Assembly (NCBI GenBank): GCA_020721585.1
Contig: DYMK01000017.1
Location: forward strand, 1-34,914
Direction of reading: 5' to 3'
Length of the DNA stretch: 34,914 bases
From: Sulfuricurvum sp.
GTDB lineage: Bacteria > Campylobacterota > Campylobacteria > Campylobacterales > Sulfurimonadaceae
Position numbers and translations under genes: made by a program. A model generated the notes under the pieces. The model worked only from the letters and a program-made list of their open reading frames with translations, was not told the origin of the DNA and searched no databases. This document shows, in pieces, positions 1,022-34,914 of this stretch (the first letter of the stretch is position 1; every line of letters begins with the position of its first letter).

Positions 1022-1807
1022 ATGACAAACGAAGCGTATCATCAAAGAGATGAAATAAGTTGTAGCCAAATCAAAACGATACTAAAAAATCCATATGAGT
1101 TTTTGGCAAAAGTGAAAAGAGACCCATCAAAGGCTATGGATTTTGGCTCATGCGTTCATAAGTTGGTTTTAGAGCCTGACGAGTTTAATAATGAGTTTGC
1201 AATTATGCCTGACATAGACAAGCGCACAAAAGAAGGGAAAGAGCTTTACGCACAGTTTATGATGCAACACGGAGGTAAAACGCTTTTAAACAATGAGGAC
1301 TATGAAAGGGCGAAATGGTGCTCGCAAATAGCATTAGAAATAGCGGGTACTTTTTTCAAAAATGGGAAAGCAGAACAAAGCTATTTTAGTGAGCTTGACG
1401 GCGTTCCTGTTAGATGCAGACCTGATTATTACATCGAAGATAAAGGCATTATCGTTGATGTAAAGACCACGGCAGACGCATCAAAAGATGGGTTTACAAA
1501 ATCAGTTGCCAACTTTGGATACCACATCCAAAACGCTTTTTATATTGACACTATGAGAAGCTTAGGATTAAAGGCTGATAAGTTTATGTTTGTGGCCATT
1601 GAGACAAAAGAGCCATTTATGATAGGGCTTTATGAGCTTGATGAAACATCAATAGAACACGGACGGAGCCAATATAAAAAGGCTTTAGAGCTTATTAGTA
1701 GTGGGAGAATCAACGAGTTTAAAGCCCCTATTTATAAAGACCAAAACGATTTAACAGTCGTTCAAACACTTACGTTACCAAATTACGTTTATTATCAAGG
1801 AGCATAA
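1022..1807 (+). CDS. RecE-like PD-(D/E)XK exonuclease (DUF3799 family)
   Basis: This 261-residue protein resembles the C-terminal nuclease domain of RecE (exodeoxyribonuclease VIII). The visible signature is GSCVHKLVLEP at residues 42-52, with His46 expected to help bind metal. E118 lies in the conserved helix-strand region, RCRPDYY (D135) is the first metal-binding strand, and IIVDVKTT gives D146 and K148. Such enzymes resect one strand of double-stranded DNA ends to leave a 3' overhang for an annealing protein. The next gene is that partner, RecT, and the two nearly abut. Start ATG follows AAAAGGAAAAG. Expected role: phage genome recombination, circularisation or repair after injection. Confidence 0.88.
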   Translation: MTNEAYHQRDEISCSQIKTILKNPYEFLAKVKRDPSKAMDFGSCVHKLVLEPDEFNNEFAIMPDIDKRTKEGKELYAQFMMQHGGKTLLNNEDYERAKWCSQIALEIAGTFFKNGKAEQSYFSELDGVPVRCRPDYYIEDKGIIVDVKTTADASKDGFTKSVANFGYHIQNAFYIDTMRSLGLKADKFMFVAIETKEPFMIGLYELDETSIEHGRSQYKKALELISSGRINEFKAPIYKDQNDLTVVQTLTLPNYVYYQGA

Positions 1808-1808
1808 A

Positions 1809-2603
1809 TTGAGCGCAATCGTAGAAAGAAAATCACAAATAACAAGGATGATGGAAAGTGGAGAGATTACCAATAGATTAAACTCTCTTTTTTCTGAAAA
1901 CAAGGACAAGGCGAGTAAGTTTAAAGCTACTCTTTTAAACATCGCTTTAGACAATAGCTTAAATGCGTGTACCCCCGCATCAATCGTCAAATCAGCGTTA
2001 ATGGTTGCAGAACTTGGACTGCCACTTGCCAAAGGATTAGGGCAGGCGTACATCGTAAAATACAAACAAGATGCGGAAGCTCAAATCGGCTACAAAGGAT
2101 GGTTAGCACTTGCAGAACGTAATGGAAAAGCAGTCAAAGCAAAGCCTATTTTCAAGTGCGATGAGTTTGAGTTAATTGATAATGGATTTGATGAAACCGT
2201 TGTCTTTAAACCAAATTATGACGAAAGAAAAGAGTTTCAGCCTTCCTGGGTAAAAGATAATTTAAAAGGTGTTTTAGTGGCGATTAAAGACATCAACACG
2301 GGAACAATCAGCAATACATTTGTAAGTGTTGGAAAGCTAAATCAAATAGCAGGAGTTAGCCCATCGGTTAAAAAAGGCAGTTACAGCCCTTATACAGATT
2401 GGGGCTTAGAGATGTTTCAAGGTAAAGCGATCAAATACGTTCTAAGCAAAACAGCGATGAACGAGGACTTAGGGCGAGCGGTTGAAATCGACAATCAAAT
2501 GGATATAAAAGCGATTGAAGATTTAAAAGAGAAAAAAGATGACATTGATTTAAACTCAATGTTTGAAGAAGCTGAAATTATCGAAGAGAAAGAAAATGTT
2601 TAA
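1809..2603 (+). CDS. recT: RecT-family single-strand annealing protein
   Basis: A 264-residue RecT homologue. Family features include [36 protein letters not shown] split around residues 52-86, the [14 protein letters not shown] segment, and [20 protein letters not shown] near residue 200. It starts with TTG, chosen because AAGGAG lies eight bases upstream and no ATG would preserve the conserved N-terminus. The last 25 residues are acidic ([10 protein letters not shown]). It anneals complementary strands exposed by the RecE-like nuclease encoded just upstream. Its 3' end overlaps the ssb start by eight bases, which indicates a recE-recT-ssb recombination operon. Confidence 0.93.
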
Positions 2604-3039
2604 TCGTGTTGTTCTACTTGGAAATCTAACACGTGACATTGAGCTTAGATACCTTCCAAGTGGTAGTGCAGTTGCAACGACTGGAATAGTCACAAACAGA
2701 AGATTTAAAAAGCAAGATGGCTCACAAGGCGAAGAGGTTATGTTTATCGACATAACCTTTTTTGGAAGGTCGGCAGAAATTGCCAATCAATATCTAAGCA
2801 GAGGTAAAAAGCTCCTAGTGGAAGGTCGTTTAAAACTCGACAGTTGGACGGACAATCAAGGGGCTAAACGCTCAAAGCATAGCGTTCACGTTGAAACTAT
2901 GCAGATGATTGACAGTAAGCAATCAGAAGAGCAACCACAACGAAACGCGCCAAAAGTTGAAACATACGATACGCAAGGCAATAAAACAGCCGAGTATGAT
3001 TTTCCTGATATAAATGACGATGAAGCTATACTCTTTTGA
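2596..3039 (+). CDS. ssb: single-stranded DNA-binding protein
   Basis: A 147-residue SSB. The OB fold occupies about residues 1-107 ([19 protein letters not shown], then [16 protein letters not shown] and [12 protein letters not shown]). A Gln/Asn-rich linker follows, then an acidic tip, DDEAILF, that corresponds to the DDDIPF-type tail used to recruit host replication proteins. I start at 2596 because that ATG aligns with the usual SSB N-terminus; the open frame extends 11 codons upstream inside recT without support. The start overlaps the recT stop. It protects single-stranded DNA during phage replication and works with RecT. Confidence 0.93.
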
Positions 3040-3047
3040 GGTGATAA

Positions 3048-3341
3048 ATGAGTGAAAACGAGATGCAAGAGCAAGCAAAGCAAACAGCCAAATATCTCGT
3101 TGCTTTTATGGGAGTTGAACTCAAAAGAATGATGTACCCAGTTGAATTAAAAGGTGACGCACTGGCAGGGCAACTTTTAGGTGTTACAGCAGAGGCAATG
3201 AAGCAACGAAGAGCAAGGGGTGTTTATCGTGACAAATACCACTATTATAAAAAATCTGATAAGATAGTGGTGTGGTTTAGAGATGCCTTGTTAGAAGAAT
3301 GGAGCTACCAAAATGGAAGTAAAGCTTTACTCTCGTCCTAA
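3048..3341 (+). CDS. putative excisionase / winged-helix DNA-binding protein
   Basis: A 97-residue protein with a strong ribosome site (GAGGTGATAA). Residues 40-85 (GQLLGVTAEAMKQRRARGVY, then YYKKSDKIVVWFRDALLEEW) look like a MerR/excisionase-type winged helix: a short HTH followed by a two-stranded wing. Its last 29 bases overlap the integrase start. The combination of small size, basic DNA-binding helix and immediate coupling to int suggests a recombination directionality factor (Xis), but this is mainly a context call. It could instead be a general regulator. Confidence 0.55.
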   Translation: MSENEMQEQAKQTAKYLVAFMGVELKRMMYPVELKGDALAGQLLGVTAEAMKQRRARGVYRDKYHYYKKSDKIVVWFRDALLEEWSYQNGSKALLSS

Positions 3342-4353
3342 CAAGGATGGTAAAAATATTCTTTATGTGGATTACACAGATAAGAAGGGCAAGAGGTTAA
3401 GAAGGTCACTTAACCTCTTGGAAACTAAGGCAAACATCGCGTATGTTTATAGACACATTATACCTGAAATTGAACAAAAGATAAAGTTTGGTGTTGAATT
3501 TCGAGAGTATAAAATGAGTGAATTTACAAGCGCAGTGTTGGATTATACAAAAAAGCATAAGAAGTTAAACACTTACACGGTTTATGAAAAAGGCGTGAGG
3601 CAATTTTTTAAGCACTTTGGGGATGTTAATATCGACTCATTAACACTGAGAGATATGGAGAACTACATCCAAAGGCTTGAAAAAGAGGGTTTAAGCGGTG
3701 CAACGACTAATCTGTATCTAGTGCCTATTAAGTTAGCTTTTAAAGAGGCTATGAGGCATGATGTGATACTAAGAAGCCCTTTAGCACTTGCAAGGAGACC
3801 TAAAACGGTTCATAAAATTAAAAAAGTGTTTAACCTAATGCAGATGCACAACATTCTAAATAATGCAGAAGGGGACCTTAAAACATTCCTCTATTTTGCA
3901 TTTTATACTGGCGCACGTCCAGGGGAAATATCAGCGTTACGGTGGGGCGATTTAGACCAAAAATCAATCTCAATCAATCGAACTGAAATACAGCAGCGCA
4001 AAAGTGAAAACCTACCAAAAAGCGGAAAAGTAAGAAAAATAGCCTTACTTAAACCACTCAAAGAGTACATCGACACACTTAAAAAAGACGATGAAAAGAT
4101 TTTCAGCTACATGTATAAGGTTTATGGTAAGCAGTTTAGAAAGCTTCTTTGTAGACTTGGGTATGAAGATAGAACACTTCACGCCATAAGACACACGTTT
4201 GCAAGTTTGCTTTTAAAAGCCAAAGAAGAGCCAACATTGGTACAATATTTCTTAGGTCATTCATCGCTTGATATGCTAAATAAAGTTTACGCGCATTACA
4301 TTGAGGATGAAAAAGATACCGACAGAATAGGAATATTCTTGGCACAATCTTGA
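3313..4353 (+). CDS. int: tyrosine recombinase / phage integrase
   Basis: A 346-residue tyrosine integrase. The N-terminal 60 residues form an arm-binding-like domain (YSRPNKDGKNILYVDY). Residues 65-160 match the SAM-like core-binding domain, and the catalytic domain follows. Catalytic residues are visible: R202 in YTGARPGEISALRW, H290 and R293 in HAIRHTFASLL, H316 in FLGHSS, and Tyr326 in KVYAHY. It inserts and excises the phage at attP. The gene is the last of the recET-ssb-xis group and is followed by 250 non-coding bases with repeats typical of an attachment region. The TGA stop lies inside the first arm-like repeat. Confidence 0.95.
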   Translation: MEVKLYSRPNKDGKNILYVDYTDKKGKRLRRSLNLLETKANIAYVYRHIIPEIEQKIKFGVEFREYKMSEFTSAVLDYTKKHKKLNTYTVYEKGVRQFFKHFGDVNIDSLTLRDMENYIQRLEKEGLSGATTNLYLVPIKLAFKEAMRHDVILRSPLALARRPKTVHKIKKVFNLMQMHNILNNAEGDLKTFLYFAFYTGARPGEISALRWGDLDQKSISINRTEIQQRKSENLPKSGKVRKIALLKPLKEYIDTLKKDDEKIFSYMYKVYGKQFRKLLCRLGYEDRTLHAIRHTFASLLLKAKEEPTLVQYFLGHSSLDMLNKVYAHYIEDEKDTDRIGIFLAQS

Positions 4354-4603
4354 CACAAAAAAAAGACCATGCTTCACGAACTCCGAAGCAATCGCTCTAA
4401 AGTTGTTAAGGTACATTAACACTTCATTGAAATTATAGGTTTTGATAGAAGTACGATTCTATCGCTCAAATATCGTATTTTAGGCATCTCTAACCACTTT
4501 AAAGATACCTACTTAACACCACTAAAACACCTTTTTAGTGTCACATTTTGGCACAAATCTGGCACACGACACAAATTTACAATCAAAAATCATAGGACTA
4601 ACT
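4339..4603. other. probable attP region with integrase arm-type repeats
   Basis: Non-coding stretch between int and the broken VRR-NUC gene. It begins with TTGGCACAATCTTGACACAA (4339-4358) at the int stop and ends with a related pair, TTGGCACAAATCTGGCACA at 4548-4566 followed by CGACACAAAT. Repeated GGCACA/GACACA hexamers on both sides of about 190 bases are what arm-type integrase sites look like. Between them lie a 7-bp inverted repeat (GATAGAA 4444-4450 / TTCTATC 4457-4463), an 8-bp hairpin (CACTAAAA 4520-4527 / TTTTAGTG 4533-4540) and a short stem, GCTTC 4371-4375 / GAAGC 4385-4389. The crossover core cannot be identified without the bacterial attB site. Confidence 0.55.
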
Positions 4604-4951
4604 ATGCTCAAAACCCACAAAAAAGGTTTAGGGATTAAGGTTAGCGAATCAGACATACAAAATTCAATACTTCAATATCTGAAACTCAAATAAATCTTTC
4701 ATTATCGCCAAAATCAAGCCGCGATAAAAACAGAAAAAACATTCTTTCGTGCTACTTCAATCAATGGCTTGCCTGACATAGTTTGCATTTTAGAAGGTAC
4801 ATACATTGGTTTAGAAGTCAAAACAGCAGTTGGAAGATTAAACGAGAATCAGATTGAAACGCATCGAAAGATAATCAGTGCGGGTGGGTTGGTTTATGTG
4901 GTGAGATCGCTTAATGACGTGAAAGCAATATTTGAAAAGAGTACAAAATGA
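4604..4951 (+). pseudogene. VRR-NUC nuclease interrupted by one in-frame TAA
   Basis: From ATG 4604 the frame reads MLKTHKKGLGIKVSESDIQ and onward to YLKLK, hits TAA at 4691-4693 (codon 30), and continues in the same frame as IFHYRQNQAAIKT to the TGA at 4949-4951. The two halves together form one VRR-NUC domain: the ESDIQ helix, the GLPDIVCIL metal-binding strand and the LEVKTAVGRL strand with the catalytic E-x-K. Only one base separates TAA from AAA (Lys), the residue type expected there. A downstream ATG at 4769 could restart translation but would lack the first helices. VRR-NUC proteins are usually junction or flap nucleases in phage replication blocks. The break may be real decay, a sequencing error or population variation. 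Confidence 0.8.
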
Positions 4952-5286
4952 TGCTATCAAAAAAAGAACAGACACGCAAAAAGAAAATACGTGACGATAA
5001 AAGACTAGAGGTAAAAGAGATGCAAAAGTATCTAAATTGGCTCAAAAAGAACTTTCCAAAGTGCCAAGCACAGCTAAACGGATGTGAACATCAAACAGTC
5101 GAAGCTCATCACGTTTTATTTGTAAGTTTTGGCGCAGACAAGGACGATAGGACATTGCGTTGCGTTTGTAGGGCTTGTCGTCAATGGGCGCACAAAAACA
5201 AGGCGTTAAGTCAAGAGCTTTTTTTACACGTTGCGCGCGAGAATTGGATGAAATACGGCGGAAGTGAGGACATTGATAATGGCTGA
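4948..5286 (+). CDS. HNH-like / zinc-binding nuclease-type protein (112 aa)
   Basis: Starts with ATGATG overlapping the previous stop. The N-terminal 35 residues are highly basic (KKEQTRKKKIRDDKRLE). The core has spaced metal ligands: CQAQLNGC, the EAHH pair, then LRCVCRACRQWAHKN. This resembles the beta-beta-alpha HNH motif, in which the last part is normally CRxCHxWAH. Here the usual His is Arg (CRACRQW), so catalysis may be altered. Its position between the VRR-NUC and replication initiator genes fits a recombination or junction-processing role, as for NinG-like proteins. The family is not certain. Confidence 0.6.
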   Translation: MMLSKKEQTRKKKIRDDKRLEVKEMQKYLNWLKKNFPKCQAQLNGCEHQTVEAHHVLFVSFGADKDDRTLRCVCRACRQWAHKNKALSQELFLHVARENWMKYGGSEDIDNG

Positions 5287-6010
5287 AAGACGAATGATGA
5301 GTAAGAAAATTATACATTCAGACGCATTTTTGGATTTACCTTCAACCACTCAAAATCTTTACTTTCATTTGCTCTTAGAGGCAGACGATGAGGGATTTGT
5401 GAACAGCCCTAAAAAGATACAAAGATTCATCGGTGCTAGTGACATTGATTCACAGCTACTTATTGACAAAAAATTCATCATTTTGTTTGAAAGTGGCGTT
5501 GTTGTGATTAAACATTGGCGGATACACAATTACATTCAAAGTGACCGTTTTAAGCCTACTTCGTACACAGAAGAGCGTTCAAAATTAAGCATAAAAGACA
5601 ACAATGTATACAAAATGTATCCAAATTGTACGCGTAGGATAGGAGAGGATAGGTTAGGTAAGGTTAGTTTAGGAGAGGATAGGTTAGAAGATACTATGTC
5701 GCCTAAAGGCTTGATTACATTTTGCGTTGATGTTGTTTTATACCTAAACAGTAAAGCAAAAACAAATTTTAAAACAGGAATTAAAAAAACAAACTCTTTA
5801 ATTGAAGCGAGAAGAAAAGAGGGATTTACGTTAAATGACTTCAAAAAGGTTATTGATATAAAAACCTCACAATGGCTCAATGATAAAAAGATGAGCGCAT
5901 ATCTAAGACCTGAAACGCTATTTGGTACTAAGTTTGAAGCGTATCTAAACGAGCAACAAATCATAGACGTTGATTGTTGGGCTGATAGTGAGGTGATAGA
6001 TGAGGCGTGA
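5279..6010 (+). CDS. phage replisome organizer / replication initiation protein
   Basis: 243 residues from ATG 5279, chosen for its GAGGA ribosome site and because MAERRMMSKKIIHSDAFLDLP is the conserved start of this family. An N-terminal winged-helix domain (about 1-95: QNLYFHLLLEADDEGFV, then PKKIQRFIGAS) binds DNA. A repetitive linker follows (RIGEDRLGKVSLGEDRLEDT). The C-terminal conserved phage domain (about 140-235) includes LIEARRKEGFTLNDFKKVID, WLNDKKMSAYLRPETLF and GTKFEAYLNEQ. Such proteins open the phage origin and recruit helicase. The start overlaps the HNH-like stop by eight bases. The linker DNA carries iteron-like repeats and is the likely origin. Confidence 0.85.
   Translation: MAERRMMSKKIIHSDAFLDLPSTTQNLYFHLLLEADDEGFVNSPKKIQRFIGASDIDSQLLIDKKFIILFESGVVVIKHWRIHNYIQSDRFKPTSYTEERSKLSIKDNNVYKMYPNCTRRIGEDRLGKVSLGEDRLEDTMSPKGLITFCVDVVLYLNSKAKTNFKTGIKKTNSLIEARRKEGFTLNDFKKVIDIKTSQWLNDKKMSAYLRPETLFGTKFEAYLNEQQIIDVDCWADSEVIDEA
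5603..5687 (+). other. iteron-like repeats within the initiator gene, candidate replication origin
   Basis: TAGGAGAGGATAGGTTAG occurs twice, at 5640-5657 and 5670-5687, exactly 30 bases apart, with a third AGGTTAG between them. Immediately upstream, AATGTAT recurs at 5603 and 5614 with a related ATTGTAC at 5625, about one helical turn apart. The tract is strongly purine-biased on the + strand. Origins located inside the initiator gene are known in lambda (within O) and several other phages. The repeats also simply encode the linker, so the origin role is an inference. Confidence 0.45.
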
Positions 6011-29726: not shown

Positions 29727-30782
29727 CTCTTTCCCAGATTTTCGTTTTTCAGCCGATAAAATAAGCTCTTGTTTGTGGCTATAAAGCTCGTCAATGTTAT
29801 CAATAGGTATTTTAATTTCAGCCCCTTTATCGTCAGGAAATGAAATCATTCTTTGCTTACCGTTGAAATAAAAACGACAAATCCATTTAGTAACTTTCCC
29901 TTGATATAAAATTGTAAAATAACTCATCGTATCTTTAAAGCTAACATTCTGAACGCCTACATTCTCACCAACAATTGAACGCACTATGTAAAATCCATTT
30001 AGCTCTTCGTCTGTTGTAATGACTCGTTTTTCTTCTACGATTGCTTCTTCTTGTATTGCTTCAGTCGTTGGAACTGATAAAGTAGATTGAATGGCTTGAA
30101 TCTTATCATTTGCAATATCGTTTAAAACATCAGAAAAAGACTTTTTAATATAAGCTCTAAATTCTTCTATGATTTGAGATGTCATTCTTTTTTCAGTTAT
30201 TTTTTTAGCGAAGAATGTGACAAAGTCATCCGATGGATTTTCTATCTCAGATTTAAATATTGATTGGATTTCTCTATGATATTTTTTTGTGCTTGCCATT
30301 TGCAGGATTGCATCAGTATCTAATACATCTTTAGCAAACTTTGCTAGTTCCTTAATGTCTCTATCTCTTGCACTCTCAAGATTAATAGACAAGAAAGGGG
30401 CTTTATCCATTTTGTTTTTTTCTTCTAAATCAGAGAAAAATCTATACTCTATACCATTAGTTAGGATGCCAAATTTACAGTCAGTTACGTTGAAGTATCT
30501 TACAAGTTGATTATTGTGGTTATCTAGCTTCTCGGTATGGTTTTTTACTTCAATAATCATCACAGGTACGCCATCTCTCAAAATAGCGTAATCAACCTTT
30601 TCACCCTTTTTTGTGCCAATGTCGGCTGTGAATTCAGGAACAACAATAGTTGGGTCAAATACATCATAACCCAAAGCAGAAAGAAAAGGCATAACGAAAG
30701 AGTGCTTAGTTGCTTCTTCGGTAAGTATTTTATCTTTCATTGATTTAATTCTATCGCCTAATGCTCTAATCTTTGACTCCAT
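29724..30782 (-). CDS. stand-alone HsdR-N-type nuclease, probable lysogenic defence protein
   Basis: 352 residues. The N-terminal 100 residues match the nuclease domain of type I restriction subunits (HSDR_N): LTEEATKHSFVMPFLSALGY, PEFTADIG, KVDYAILRDG (D64), MIIEVKNH (E78, K80) and Q92 in NHNNQLVRYFN. No helicase motifs follow. Residues 130-240 are helical, and the C-terminal 90 residues form a separate beta-rich domain (FYIVRSIVGENVG). The gene starts 29 bases behind the repressor stop with AAAGG upstream, so it is probably co-expressed in the lysogen. Role inferred: cutting invading DNA or superinfection exclusion. Confidence 0.75.
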   Translation of the reverse strand: MESKIRALGDRIKSMKDKILTEEATKHSFVMPFLSALGYDVFDPTIVVPEFTADIGTKKGEKVDYAILRDGVPVMIIEVKNHTEKLDNHNNQLVRYFNVTDCKFGILTNGIEYRFFSDLEEKNKMDKAPFLSINLESARDRDIKELAKFAKDVLDTDAILQMASTKKYHREIQSIFKSEIENPSDDFVTFFAKKITEKRMTSQIIEEFRAYIKKSFSDVLNDIANDKIQAIQSTLSVPTTEAIQEEAIVEEKRVITTDEELNGFYIVRSIVGENVGVQNVSFKDTMSYFTILYQGKVTKWICRFYFNGKQRMISFPDDKGAEIKIPIDNIDELYSHKQELILSAEKRKSGKE

Positions 30783-30811: not shown

Positions 30812-31453
30812 TTAGCGCAATCTTCTAATCACATTTACATTCATTACCACAAAGACCTCACCAACGAATCTTATCGTATCCATATCATACTCATTTATTT
30901 CATATTCTGGTGCACTTGAATTTTCACCTTTGAGCGTCAATCCTTTTGTAAGAGGGTTTTTAAATACTTTTTTACAGTACGTTTCACCATTTACATTTAC
31001 AATGTAGATATTTCCATCTCTCACAGAATCAAAAGGAACGACAAAGAGAATGTCGCCATCTTTAATCAATGGTTCCATGCTATTACCATCAGCAACAATC
31101 GCATGCACATCTTTAGCACATTTAATACCAAGATGATTTAAAAGATACGAGGTTGGGAATTTCATCTCTTGAATGTCATAATCTTCCGCAACGCACATAC
31201 TGCCATTTGCGCAAGATGCTTTTATGTTAGGGTAAAGCTTGATTGTGGTGTACTCTTCATCACTTTTATAGTTTAATTTCCCAAACTTTACTTCAAATTC
31301 TCTAATTCTATCCATTACTTCATCTGAAATTTTATCAGAGTTTTTTATTTTTGTAATGTATGATTCAACCACTCCAAGCTCTTTACTTAGGGCTTTTTGA
31401 TTCTTTACCTTACTTACTCTAATCATCTCTTCAATGATTTTTTCACCAAGCAT
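30812..31453 (-). CDS. CI-type repressor with S24 peptidase domain
   Basis: 213 residues. The N-terminal HTH (NQKALSKELGVVESYITKIK, residues 18-37) is of the phage CI type. The C-terminal LexA-like domain has the catalytic pair Ser125 in DGNSMEPLIKDGDILFV and Lys161 in GETYCKKVF. The hinge at the usual self-cleavage site reads KASCANGSM (79-86), where AG or CG would be expected. It should bind the palindrome upstream, blocking the early promoter. A ribosome site (AAAGGAT) is present. It is read leftward into the HsdR-N gene. Confidence 0.88.
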   Translation of the reverse strand: MLGEKIIEEMIRVSKVKNQKALSKELGVVESYITKIKNSDKISDEVMDRIREFEVKFGKLNYKSDEEYTTIKLYPNIKASCANGSMCVAEDYDIQEMKFPTSYLLNHLGIKCAKDVHAIVADGNSMEPLIKDGDILFVVPFDSVRDGNIYIVNVNGETYCKKVFKNPLTKGLTLKGENSSAPEYEINEYDMDTIRFVGEVFVVMNVNVIRRLR

Positions 31454-31480: not shown

Positions 31481-31487
31481 AAAACAC

Positions 31488-31517
31488 TTGACAAATAGTG
31501 AATTAATTCACTATAAT
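31488..31517 (+). promoter_or_regulatory. early rightward promoter (PR-like)
   Basis: TTGACA (31488-31493) and TATAAT (31512-31517), both perfect consensus hexamers, with an 18-base spacer. Transcription would start near 31524 and read the early operon from 31586. It is the strongest sigma70-type promoter seen in the window. Confidence 0.85.
31495..31514. promoter_or_regulatory. repressor operator, 20-bp perfect palindrome
   Basis: ATAGTGAATTAATTCACTAT, centred between 31504 and 31505, lies between the -35 and -10 hexamers of the early promoter and overlaps the -10. A repressor dimer bound here would exclude RNA polymerase. Its location beside the divergent CI gene makes CI the expected ligand. 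Confidence 0.8.
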
Positions 31518-31585
31518 TCTCTCATCAAACCAAATCGACACAAATCGAAAAAGGCTTAGAACGCAACTTAAAACAAAGGCAAAAA

Positions 31586-32098: not shown

Positions 32099-32301
32099 TG
32101 TCAAAAGTTATGGATGTAGAAAAAATCAATAGGGACTTTGCAAATGAGACAGCTTTTTGTAGAGAGATGGGAATATCAAGAAATGTTTACAACCATCTAA
32201 AGCGAAAAAAAGCGACTTATTTCAGAGAAGGGAGCGATGCGTACAACGCATCAATCAAGATAGAAAAAAGAGGATACATGAAAGAAAGGGAGATAGCATG
32301 A
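32098..32301 (+). CDS. small HTH-like regulator (67 aa)
   Basis: ATG overlaps the previous stop; GAGG lies upstream. Residues 14-40 (NETAFCREMGISRNVYNHLK) look like a short helix-turn-helix, and the remainder is basic. It occupies the place of a Cro-like or antirepressor-type early regulator. It overlaps the next gene by four bases (ATGA). Confidence 0.5.
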   Translation: MSKVMDVEKINRDFANETAFCREMGISRNVYNHLKRKKATYFREGSDAYNASIKIEKRGYMKEREIA

Positions 32302-32858
32302 ACGACATCGTAAAAATAACAGACGATAGAGAGCTAGTTGTTTCACTTGAAGATGTTGCAAGTGCAACGGATAATCAAGTTTCATCGATCATTACATTGA
32401 TTCAAAAATACAGTGATACTTTTGATGTTCAAATCCCTAAAGGTTCGTATAAGGATTTGAAATCCTTATGTCTAGCTGAAAAAGATACCTACAAACTATT
32501 AGTGTTAATGGGAAATAGTAAAAAGGTTATTGAGTTCAAAATAGCACTCGTTGATGAGTTTTTTAGAATGAGGGAATTTTTGCGAAATGGTCTTGTCATC
32601 AATGATGAACTCAAAAAACACATAGAGCAGTTTATTCCTAAAGGTGGGTACCTTGAAGAGAACGCAAACGGAGAGTTAAAAACAAAACCAATTAGAGGTT
32701 ATTTCAGAGTTGATAAGTTTAGCAACTACGCAATTTTGCTTAACAAAAAATACCAACTTCAAAAAAGAGTAAACAGCCTTTTGAGAGAAGAGTACGAACT
32801 AGAAATAAAAATGGTTGAAATCGAACTAGCAGAAATTGAAAAGGAGAATGTAGCATGA
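32298..32858 (+). CDS. Rha-family-like regulator, first of tandem pair
   Basis: 186 residues, ATGA-coupled. Residues 10-95 follow the Rha pattern in degenerate form: LVVSLEDVASATDNQVSSI corresponds to the DVA..F...H..VLRDI helix, and YKLLVLMGNSKKVIEFKIAL with DEFFRM corresponds to the FLVMGFTG.KA..FK...I..FN.ME block of the next protein. The C-terminal part contains RGYFRVDKFSNYAILLNKKY and a final helix. Rha-type proteins are early phage regulators, in some cases interfering with host or lysogenic functions. Confidence 0.55.
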   Translation: MNDIVKITDDRELVVSLEDVASATDNQVSSIITLIQKYSDTFDVQIPKGSYKDLKSLCLAEKDTYKLLVLMGNSKKVIEFKIALVDEFFRMREFLRNGLVINDELKKHIEQFIPKGGYLEENANGELKTKPIRGYFRVDKFSNYAILLNKKYQLQKRVNSLLREEYELEIKMVEIELAEIEKENVA

Positions 32859-33544
32859 GTGCATTAGTTATCAACAACATAGAGGTAAGTTTAATCTCTA
32901 AAGATGGAAAAGTGTTTGCAACGAGTTTGGACGTTGCTAAGGTTTTTGAAAAAGAACATAAGAATGTCTTACGAGATGTTTCAAATATGAGCGAAAGAGC
33001 ACGGCTCAATTTTGAGCTTAAGTCTTATCTAAGTTTGAACAATAAAGAAATGCCAATGTACGAGATGAATCGTGACGGTTTTTCATTTCTTGTTATGGGC
33101 TTCACTGGCGAAAAGGCTGAAAACTTCAAGCTTGATTTTATTGACGGGTTCAATCAGATGGAAAACGCATTAAGAGAACAACAATCCATGGTGCACCTCA
33201 CACCGCAATCATTTACTATGAAAGCCATAGCAGAAATGGCAAATAGCTTTTTAGGTGTTGAAAATCAAATCAAAGAGGTAAAAGGCGAAATCGCAGAACT
33301 CAAAAACAGCACTACGATTGATTACGCACAACAACAAAAAATACAAAAACAAATTGCAATCAGGGTAGCGGAGTTAAGAAATACTCACTCACTCGAATCA
33401 AGCTACCAAAGAAAAATATTTCAAGGGCTACATAGGGTACTAAAGGAAGTCTTTCAAGTTGGAAGCTACAAAGACATCGCTAAAGTACGCTTTAATGAGG
33501 CAATTCACATTATACAGAATTCTAAATTAAATTTATCTATTTAG
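32855..33544 (+). CDS. Rha-family regulatory protein with ORF6C-like C-terminus
   Basis: 229 residues, ATGA-coupled. The Rha domain spans about 1-105 (ATSLDVAKVFEKEHKNVLRD, MYEMNRDGFSFLVMGFTGEK, FIDGFNQMENAL). A helical linker (LGVENQIKEVKGEIAELKNS) and an ORF6C-like C-terminal domain follow (QQKIQKQIAIRVAELRN, FQGLHRVLKEVFQVGSYKDI). Proteins with this order act as phage antirepressor-type or early regulators. It is the second of two related genes in tandem. Confidence 0.85.
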   Translation: MSALVINNIEVSLISKDGKVFATSLDVAKVFEKEHKNVLRDVSNMSERARLNFELKSYLSLNNKEMPMYEMNRDGFSFLVMGFTGEKAENFKLDFIDGFNQMENALREQQSMVHLTPQSFTMKAIAEMANSFLGVENQIKEVKGEIAELKNSTTIDYAQQQKIQKQIAIRVAELRNTHSLESSYQRKIFQGLHRVLKEVFQVGSYKDIAKVRFNEAIHIIQNSKLNLSI

Positions 33545-33990: not shown

Positions 33991-34269
33991 GGCTCTCTTG
34001 AGTTGTATTACAACGATGGGCGAGAGCCTCCGAAAGGGAATACCCAACCACTTAGGTGCTGATGGGGATAAGGGGTGGCAACCAAAGAGCCAAGACGTGC
34101 AGTTTGATATACGTCTTTAAAAAATAGTATCTATGACCTTTAGGCAAGGTGTAAAACTGCCTATTTTCTAAAGCACACAACGAATACAGCGGAACACTGA
34201 TCCATCGGTCACGAGCATTGACAACGGGGTGACGGTTGTGGTTTTGGAAAACTTTAAAAAGGAGAACGA
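33991..34269 (+). other. non-coding leader with many stems, candidate structured RNA
   Basis: No convincing gene lies between the leftward promoter and ATG 34270. Stems seen: GGCTCTC 33991-33997 with GAGAGCC 34022-34028, enclosing GTTGT-ATT-ACAAC (34002-34014); GGG-AATA-CCC (34036-34045); AAGACGT 34092-34098 with ACGTCTT 34111-34117; and TAGGCA 34141-34146 with TGCCTA 34158-34163, followed by TTTT. The part from about 34000 to 34250 is visibly richer in G and C than its surroundings. It could be a phage regulatory RNA, a leader controlling the DUF7666-like gene, or a small RNA ending near 34167. No Rfam family is recognised. Confidence 0.4.
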
Positions 34270-34914
34270 ATGAAAGGTTATAAAGGTTTTGACAAAGATT
34301 TATCATGTCGTGGTTTCAAATTTAAGGAGGGTGAAACATTTGAAGAAAATGTCAAACCTAGTACATGTAAGCAAGGGTTTCACTTTTGTAAAAATCCTCT
34401 TGATGTATTTACTTACTACCCACCGCTTACTGGGGCAAAGTACGCAGAGGTTGAAGCATTGGGTGATATTGACGAAGAGTCGGACAAAGTATCTACTAAT
34501 AAGCTAAAAATAGATTCATCCATCAGCATAGGCGATATGTTCAAGGCGCATTTTAAAATGGTATATGAGAAGCTTACCTATTCCGATACTGCCAACACAA
34601 GCGGAAACGAAGCTCATGCCAACACAAGCGGATACAAAGCTCATGCCAACACAAGCGGAAACAAAGCTCATGCCAACACAAGCGGAAACGAAGCTCATGC
34701 CAACACAAGCGGAAACAAAGCTCATGCCAACACAAGCGGAAACGAAGCTCATGCCAACACAAGCGGATACAAAGCTCATGCCAACACAAGCGGAAACGAA
34801 GCTCATGCCAACACAAGCGGAAACGAAGCTCATGCCAACACAAGCGGAAACTATGCTCATGCCAACACAAGCGGAAACGAAGCTCATGCCAACACAAGCG
34901 GATACAAAGCTCAT
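34270..34914 (+). CDS. DUF7666-like repeat protein, N-terminal part (runs off right end)
   Basis: ATG with AAGGAG upstream (about 34258-34263). The N-terminal 105 residues have the DUF7666 look: KGYKGFDKDLSCRGFKFKEG, then CKQGFHFCKNPLDVFTYYPP and YAEVEALGDI. This is followed by 12 nine-residue units (the first begins DTANTSGNE) up to the window end. The frame is unbroken and matches that at base 1, so the gene spans the junction. At the join one Ala-His pair is present on both sides, so either six bases overlap or one unit is incomplete. The family is phage-borne with unknown function. Confidence 0.78.
   Translation, partial: MKGYKGFDKDLSCRGFKFKEGETFEENVKPSTCKQGFHFCKNPLDVFTYYPPLTGAKYAEVEALGDIDEESDKVSTNKLKIDSSISIGDMFKAHFKMVYEKLTYSDTANTSGNEAHANTSGYKAHANTSGNKAHANTSGNEAHANTSGNKAHANTSGNEAHANTSGYKAHANTSGNEAHANTSGNEAHANTSGNYAHANTSGNEAHANTSGYKAH
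34585..34914 (+). repeat. 27-bp tandem repeat tract, right part (12 units plus 6 bases)
   Basis: Twelve units then GCTCAT. Variant order at protein level is NE, YK, NK, NE, NK, NE, YK, NE, NE, NY, NE, YK. Same family as the tract at 1-405. Confidence 0.95.

Follow-up and report, generated by a model that had tools for sequence, protein, structure and literature searches.

The window analysed here, the whole stretch of 34,914 bp, is contig C67 in its entirety and belongs to a 2.29-Mb assembly. Both of its ends lie inside a single tandem-repeat gene, with the 5' half at 34271–34914 and the 3' half at 1–603, and we found no host DNA anywhere in the window. It therefore reads as a phage circle cut within the repeat. 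The 27-bp repeat array (GCTCATGCCAACACAAGCGGAAACGAA and variants; 34590–34914 and 1–410), inside which the contig ends, is intragenic and encodes AHANTSGNE repeats. Head and tail genes occur together with a repressor, Rha-like genes, recE-recT-ssb, a small gene overlapping an integrase gene, and a DnaD-like helicase loader, a content best explained by a temperate tailed phage. A metagenome-derived viral contig found via terminase relatives (L098) holds a 16-kb identical fragment of this phage, without the att region.

A CI/LexA-type repressor gene (30812–31453, minus strand; Peptidase S24 domain matches) is divergent from the early operon. The early promoter (TTGACA-18-TATAAT, 12/12; 31488–31517, plus strand) is the sole perfect consensus promoter of the window and has a homologous 12/12 promoter in the related phage G587. 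Its spacer contains a putative repressor operator, the 20-bp perfect palindrome ATAGTGAATTAATTCACTAT (31495–31514), which is unique in the window: a search with its 18-bp core, allowing as many as 3 mismatches, gave no second copy. An AAATCGA motif recurs in the early transcript leader (31518–31562), and the G587 leader is similar despite its different operator and repressor. From the promoter, the plus strand reads through two Rha-like regulatory genes (32298–33544; a Phage_pRha match on 32298–32858 falls below the Pfam cut-off, and the second ORF matches its G587 counterpart), a recE-like nuclease, recT and ssb (1022–3039; DUF3799/PDDEXK for recE, RecT matches, ssb by sequence), a probable excisionase (xis; 3048–3341) and a tyrosine integrase (int; 3313–4353), followed by attP, an HNH gene and the DnaD helicase loader. 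The small xis gene overlaps int, has no family match and is conserved beside int in three relatives; we infer its role.

Between the Rha genes and recET we also observed a structured non-coding RNA at about 34168–34250 (plus strand), present in G587 (31481–31560) and in the stretch of relative G116 (36807–36881). The copies are 81–83% identical over 80 nt, and the closing stem differs between the window and its relatives in a way that looks compensatory. It matched no Rfam family and is a candidate antiterminator or leader RNA.

Across attP, the first frame is a VRR-NUC homologue (4604–4951, plus strand) that is broken or split, codon 30 being an in-frame TAA. The first post-att gene in G587 resembles it over the first ~14 codons but is otherwise different. 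An HNH-type protein follows (4948–5286, plus strand; domain match, 61% to G587) and overlaps the start of the gene for the DnaD-like helicase loader (5264–6010, plus strand; domain matches), the first replication gene across attP. Further replication and methyltransferase genes and all head, tail and lysis genes continue on the same strand (6000–29706). The gene order that a sequence-only reading of this DNA had drawn on the circle is thus as described, except that its VRR-NUC gene is interrupted.

The same reading had placed an integrase and arm-like repeats inside the early operon, and both are borne out. The integrase is full length (Pfam Phage_integrase 1.6e-17; PHROG integrase 1.8e-60), with catalytic residues R202, H290, R293, H316 and Y326 invariant in 6 relatives and K236/K239 present. 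Two pairs of arm-type repeats flank a 190-bp gap after int, the first (TTGGCACAATCTTGACACA; 4339–4357, plus strand) overlapping the int stop codon and the second (TTGGCACAAATCTGGCACA) at 4548–4566 (plus strand), so that attP (4339–4566) is intergenic. The att sites of G116, G060 and G587 carry the same repeats. A terminator-like hairpin on the minus strand (4370–4390), just after int, is placed to block transcription entering int from the attR side.

For att mapping we chose G116 and G060 as relatives with the same small gene and int module. In G116, a complete genome with an int 59% identical to that of the window, feoA and an aguB-like gene flank the prophage, which has the 18-bp duplication ATTAAAAGCTCATTAAGG at both ends. 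Contig C136 of G060 (int 54%) carries both prophage ends and the 17-bp duplication TATATAATTTAACTTTA. In both exactly mapped relatives, arm 1 is separated from the core by 55 bp and the core from arm 2 by 101–104 bp. Applied to the window, this spacing predicts a core at about 4406–4446, inside the 4354–4603 interval proposed earlier for the crossover. The predicted attP crossover segment begins with a 10-mer, TTAAGGTACA, that is also found in the mapped G116 attB (reached by 58/2000 shuffles), and is overlapped by GTTGTTAAGGT, common to the attL end of G587 (28/2000 shuffles). The window attP position is accordingly a prediction by homology with mapped relatives. A third arm-type pair (TTTGGCACAATTCTTGGCACAA) lies in the reverse complement of G060 C136 at 30756–30775, inside the prophage but at a distance from att, in the stretch that separates the repressor region from the early genes.

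The order of the integrated phage is best seen in relatives. Opened at att, the window circle is collinear with G587 (IMG/VR 3300027373_000203; 35,970 bp; int 64%), which runs from an attL arm and the GGACTAACTATG leader through HNH, DnaD, methyltransferase, head, tail, lysis, repressor, Rha, recE, recT, ssb and the small gene to int, the record ending exactly at the int stop. Identities to the window reach 86% for recE, 90% for recT and 88% for the small gene. The same virus is present in a second, independently trimmed record (3300005403_000163), which opens precisely on an ORF start close to the left end of the first. IMG/VR record G061 is identical to the G116 stretch 9503–47028 (37,526 bp) and ends precisely on the int stop, beyond which G116 continues with host DNA; this indicates that IMG/VR trims proviruses at gene ends. 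Given this trimming and the collinearity with the window opened at att, G587, known from trimmed provirus records, is very probably an integrated prophage in the order that the sequence-only reading had predicted, beginning with the replication genes and ending with int. In G116 and G060, too, int is the last prophage gene, with arm 1 just after it. The same prophage order is strongly supported for the window phage. From the att position and the order seen in relatives, integration would leave the DnaD-type replication genes cut off from the one early promoter under repressor control.

These observations suggest a model of excision-coupled read-through. The int-attP module would lie midway in one continuous rightward transcription unit, and the integrase would join attP, by crossover at about 4406–4446, to a host site. 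The resulting prophage would read attL, HNH, DnaD replication genes, late genes, repressor and early promoter, recET-ssb, xis, int, attR. In the lysogen, the repressor would close the early promoter; once open, that promoter would express recombination and excision functions only, because the replication genes would be at the other prophage end, upstream of it. Excision by Xis and Int and circularisation would place the early promoter upstream of attP again, and read-through past int would transcribe the helicase loader and the genes beyond. From this layout, we infer that replication-gene mRNA would come mainly from read-through and that the replication genes would be off in the lysogen. The switch is plausible and unproven, and we hold the model as a whole tentatively, at a little under an even chance. 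That entry into replication is physically gated by excision, with no lysogen promoter, the early transcript across attP as sole source and possibly the help of a canT-like RNA, we consider rather doubtful.

Several features of the window fit read-through from the early promoter. Between 4354 and 5290, the best promoter score was 9/12, which most shuffled sequences attain; a missing sigma-70 consensus is weak evidence in these bacteria. No terminator-like site was found on the plus strand between int and 9149, and the HNH/DnaD overlap leaves DnaD without a gap of its own for a promoter. The earlier interpretation is partly supported: its crossover position and the prophage order that follows from it stood, while the silence of the replication genes in the lysogen is conjectural.

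The other relatives limit how far this reading can be extended. G587 retains the early promoter, but has a different operator motif, of which three copies lie within or close to its repressor gene; its first 24.9 kb, with the replication and late genes, are free of it. It also has a TTGACA-17-TATAAT promoter (12/12; 1500–1528) after a small HTH gene and before the replication genes, between att and DnaD, a score reached by 1/200 shuffles of the region. A strong independent promoter for the replication genes had been named beforehand as grounds for rejecting the switch, and G587 possesses one, whereas the best candidate in 4354–5290 of the window is the 9/12 site. The replication genes of G587 therefore need not wait for excision, and conservation of the coupling is not strict. 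In G116 and G060, the replication and late genes are on the opposite strand, so integration disconnects nothing there. Both prophages appear seated between divergently transcribed host genes, with host promoters reading away from both ends. Because G587 has its own promoter and the replication genes of G116 and G060 are on the opposite strand, excision coupling would be a property of this gene arrangement, possibly of the window phage only, and not of the integrase family.

The same comparisons bear on a reading in which att is as placed but the replication genes are served by a promoter of their own, near 4578 or of an unrecognised kind, and the order is a by-product of modular exchange with no switch: an int-attP cassette joined to recET would have landed by chance ahead of a co-oriented replication module. 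Such a by-product is quite possible, though we lean against it. It would account for G587, where the same order coexists with a 12/12 promoter just upstream of the replication genes, for G116 and G060, which hold the same xis-int-attP cassette with oppositely oriented replication and late genes, and for the mosaic-looking boundary just after attP, where ~14 codons common to the window and G587 give way to different proteins. However, the window lacks an above-chance promoter there, as well as the additional stretch between HNH and DnaD on which the G587 promoter lies. Excision-coupled read-through could also act on top of local expression, a weak constitutive or phage-activated promoter providing a basal level that post-excision read-through boosts, so that the order tunes rather than gates. 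Continuous orientation without a terminator agrees with this, as does G587, which retains the read-through path together with a local promoter. The candidate in the window is TACAAT at 4578–4583, ahead of the first post-attP gene and, among the forms scanned, the only -10-like hexamer in 4354–5290, but it has no -35 element, and we regard the combined reading as improbable.

We give very little weight to the remaining alternative, that integration in the present host is rare or absent and the phage exists as a circle or lytically with int little used, so that the order would have no regulatory meaning. In its favour, no attL or attR was found elsewhere in the window's assembly and the contig runs through attP, indicating that the sequenced DNA is overwhelmingly unintegrated. 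Against it, the integrase, the small overlapping gene and the arm sites are intact and conserved, close relatives are integrated, and the contig is probably mis-binned, in which case the assembly says little about the real host. Tetranucleotide usage of the window correlated with pieces of the assigned genome (G000) at r 0.51–0.58, compared with 0.97–0.98 for these pieces among themselves and 0.87 for the window against the G116 chromosome. Given this mismatch with the assigned genome and the match to the G116 host, the contig is probably mis-binned, or the phage is adapted to another host.

Mis-binning would also explain the absence of attB in G000. A BLAST search of G000 with the att region gave a best match of 25 bp at 88% (E 0.14), at chance level; a 13-mer search with 2 mismatches gave chance-level sites only, the reversed control pattern matching more often; and the aguB neighbour, as at the G116 attB, had no matching att in G000. 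The exact attP 30-mer had no match among viral contigs. The search for the prophage in host genomes, proposed earlier as a check, thus yielded mapped ends in G116 and G060 and no lysogen of the exact phage: at E<=1e-45 and apart from the named relatives, there were none among 228 family genomes, 399 order genomes and 44 genomes of the G116 family.

Several known systems share features with the window arrangement. In lambda, integration removes sib, and the replication genes O and P, in the pR operon, stay with their promoter on integration, unlike the replication genes of the window. Lambda int is transcribed towards attP, as in the window, and is retroregulated by the downstream sib, an element beyond attP (PMC5300877). 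A similar logic is that of Tn916, a tested switch of excision-coupled expression, in which a promoter reads through xis and int towards the element end and the next-stage genes, at the other end, come to lie behind it only once the circle has formed (PMC11658703). The window map and the G587 provirus order likewise part next-stage genes from their driving promoter by integration. Tn916 is, however, a conjugative element rather than a tailed phage, and has an insulating terminator and the canT antiterminator (PMC11658703), whereas no plus-strand terminator was found at the left prophage end of the window, and its early-operon RNA is a candidate antiterminator. In mycobacteriophage BPs and its relatives, which show integration-dependent immunity, the placement of attP similarly lets integration itself change prophage expression (PMC4557955). 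The BPs attP is inside the repressor gene and changes its product, whereas the window attP is intergenic and about 8 kb around the circle from the repressor, which is untouched. In ICEKp1, end-joining in the circle also changes which promoter serves a gene, the int promoters switching between states with the use of host tRNA-asn and 3'-end promoters (PMC13023037); int itself is switched there, and the replication genes would be the gated set in the window. Campylobacter phage DA10, the nearest annotated recT relative, likewise has recT and an exonuclease in an early operon beside replication genes in one direction, but these gene sets are contiguous, with no annotated integrase between them in the stretch of DA10 examined. 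A literature search of partial coverage found no tailed-phage case of an excision-coupled switch.

By analogy, the kind of logic seen in Tn916, BPs, ICEKp1 and lambda is plausibly at work here in a tailed phage, the genes that it gates being those for replication. Were the excision-coupled model true, a tailed phage would be using Tn916 logic, and its lysogen would be unable to replicate in situ. The damage from phage replication firing inside the chromosome would thus be avoided, and induction, excision and replication would be ordered by geometry alone. Even if the coupling is not strict, one int-attP cassette is found in two regulatory contexts, with integration disconnecting replication in one and not in the other.
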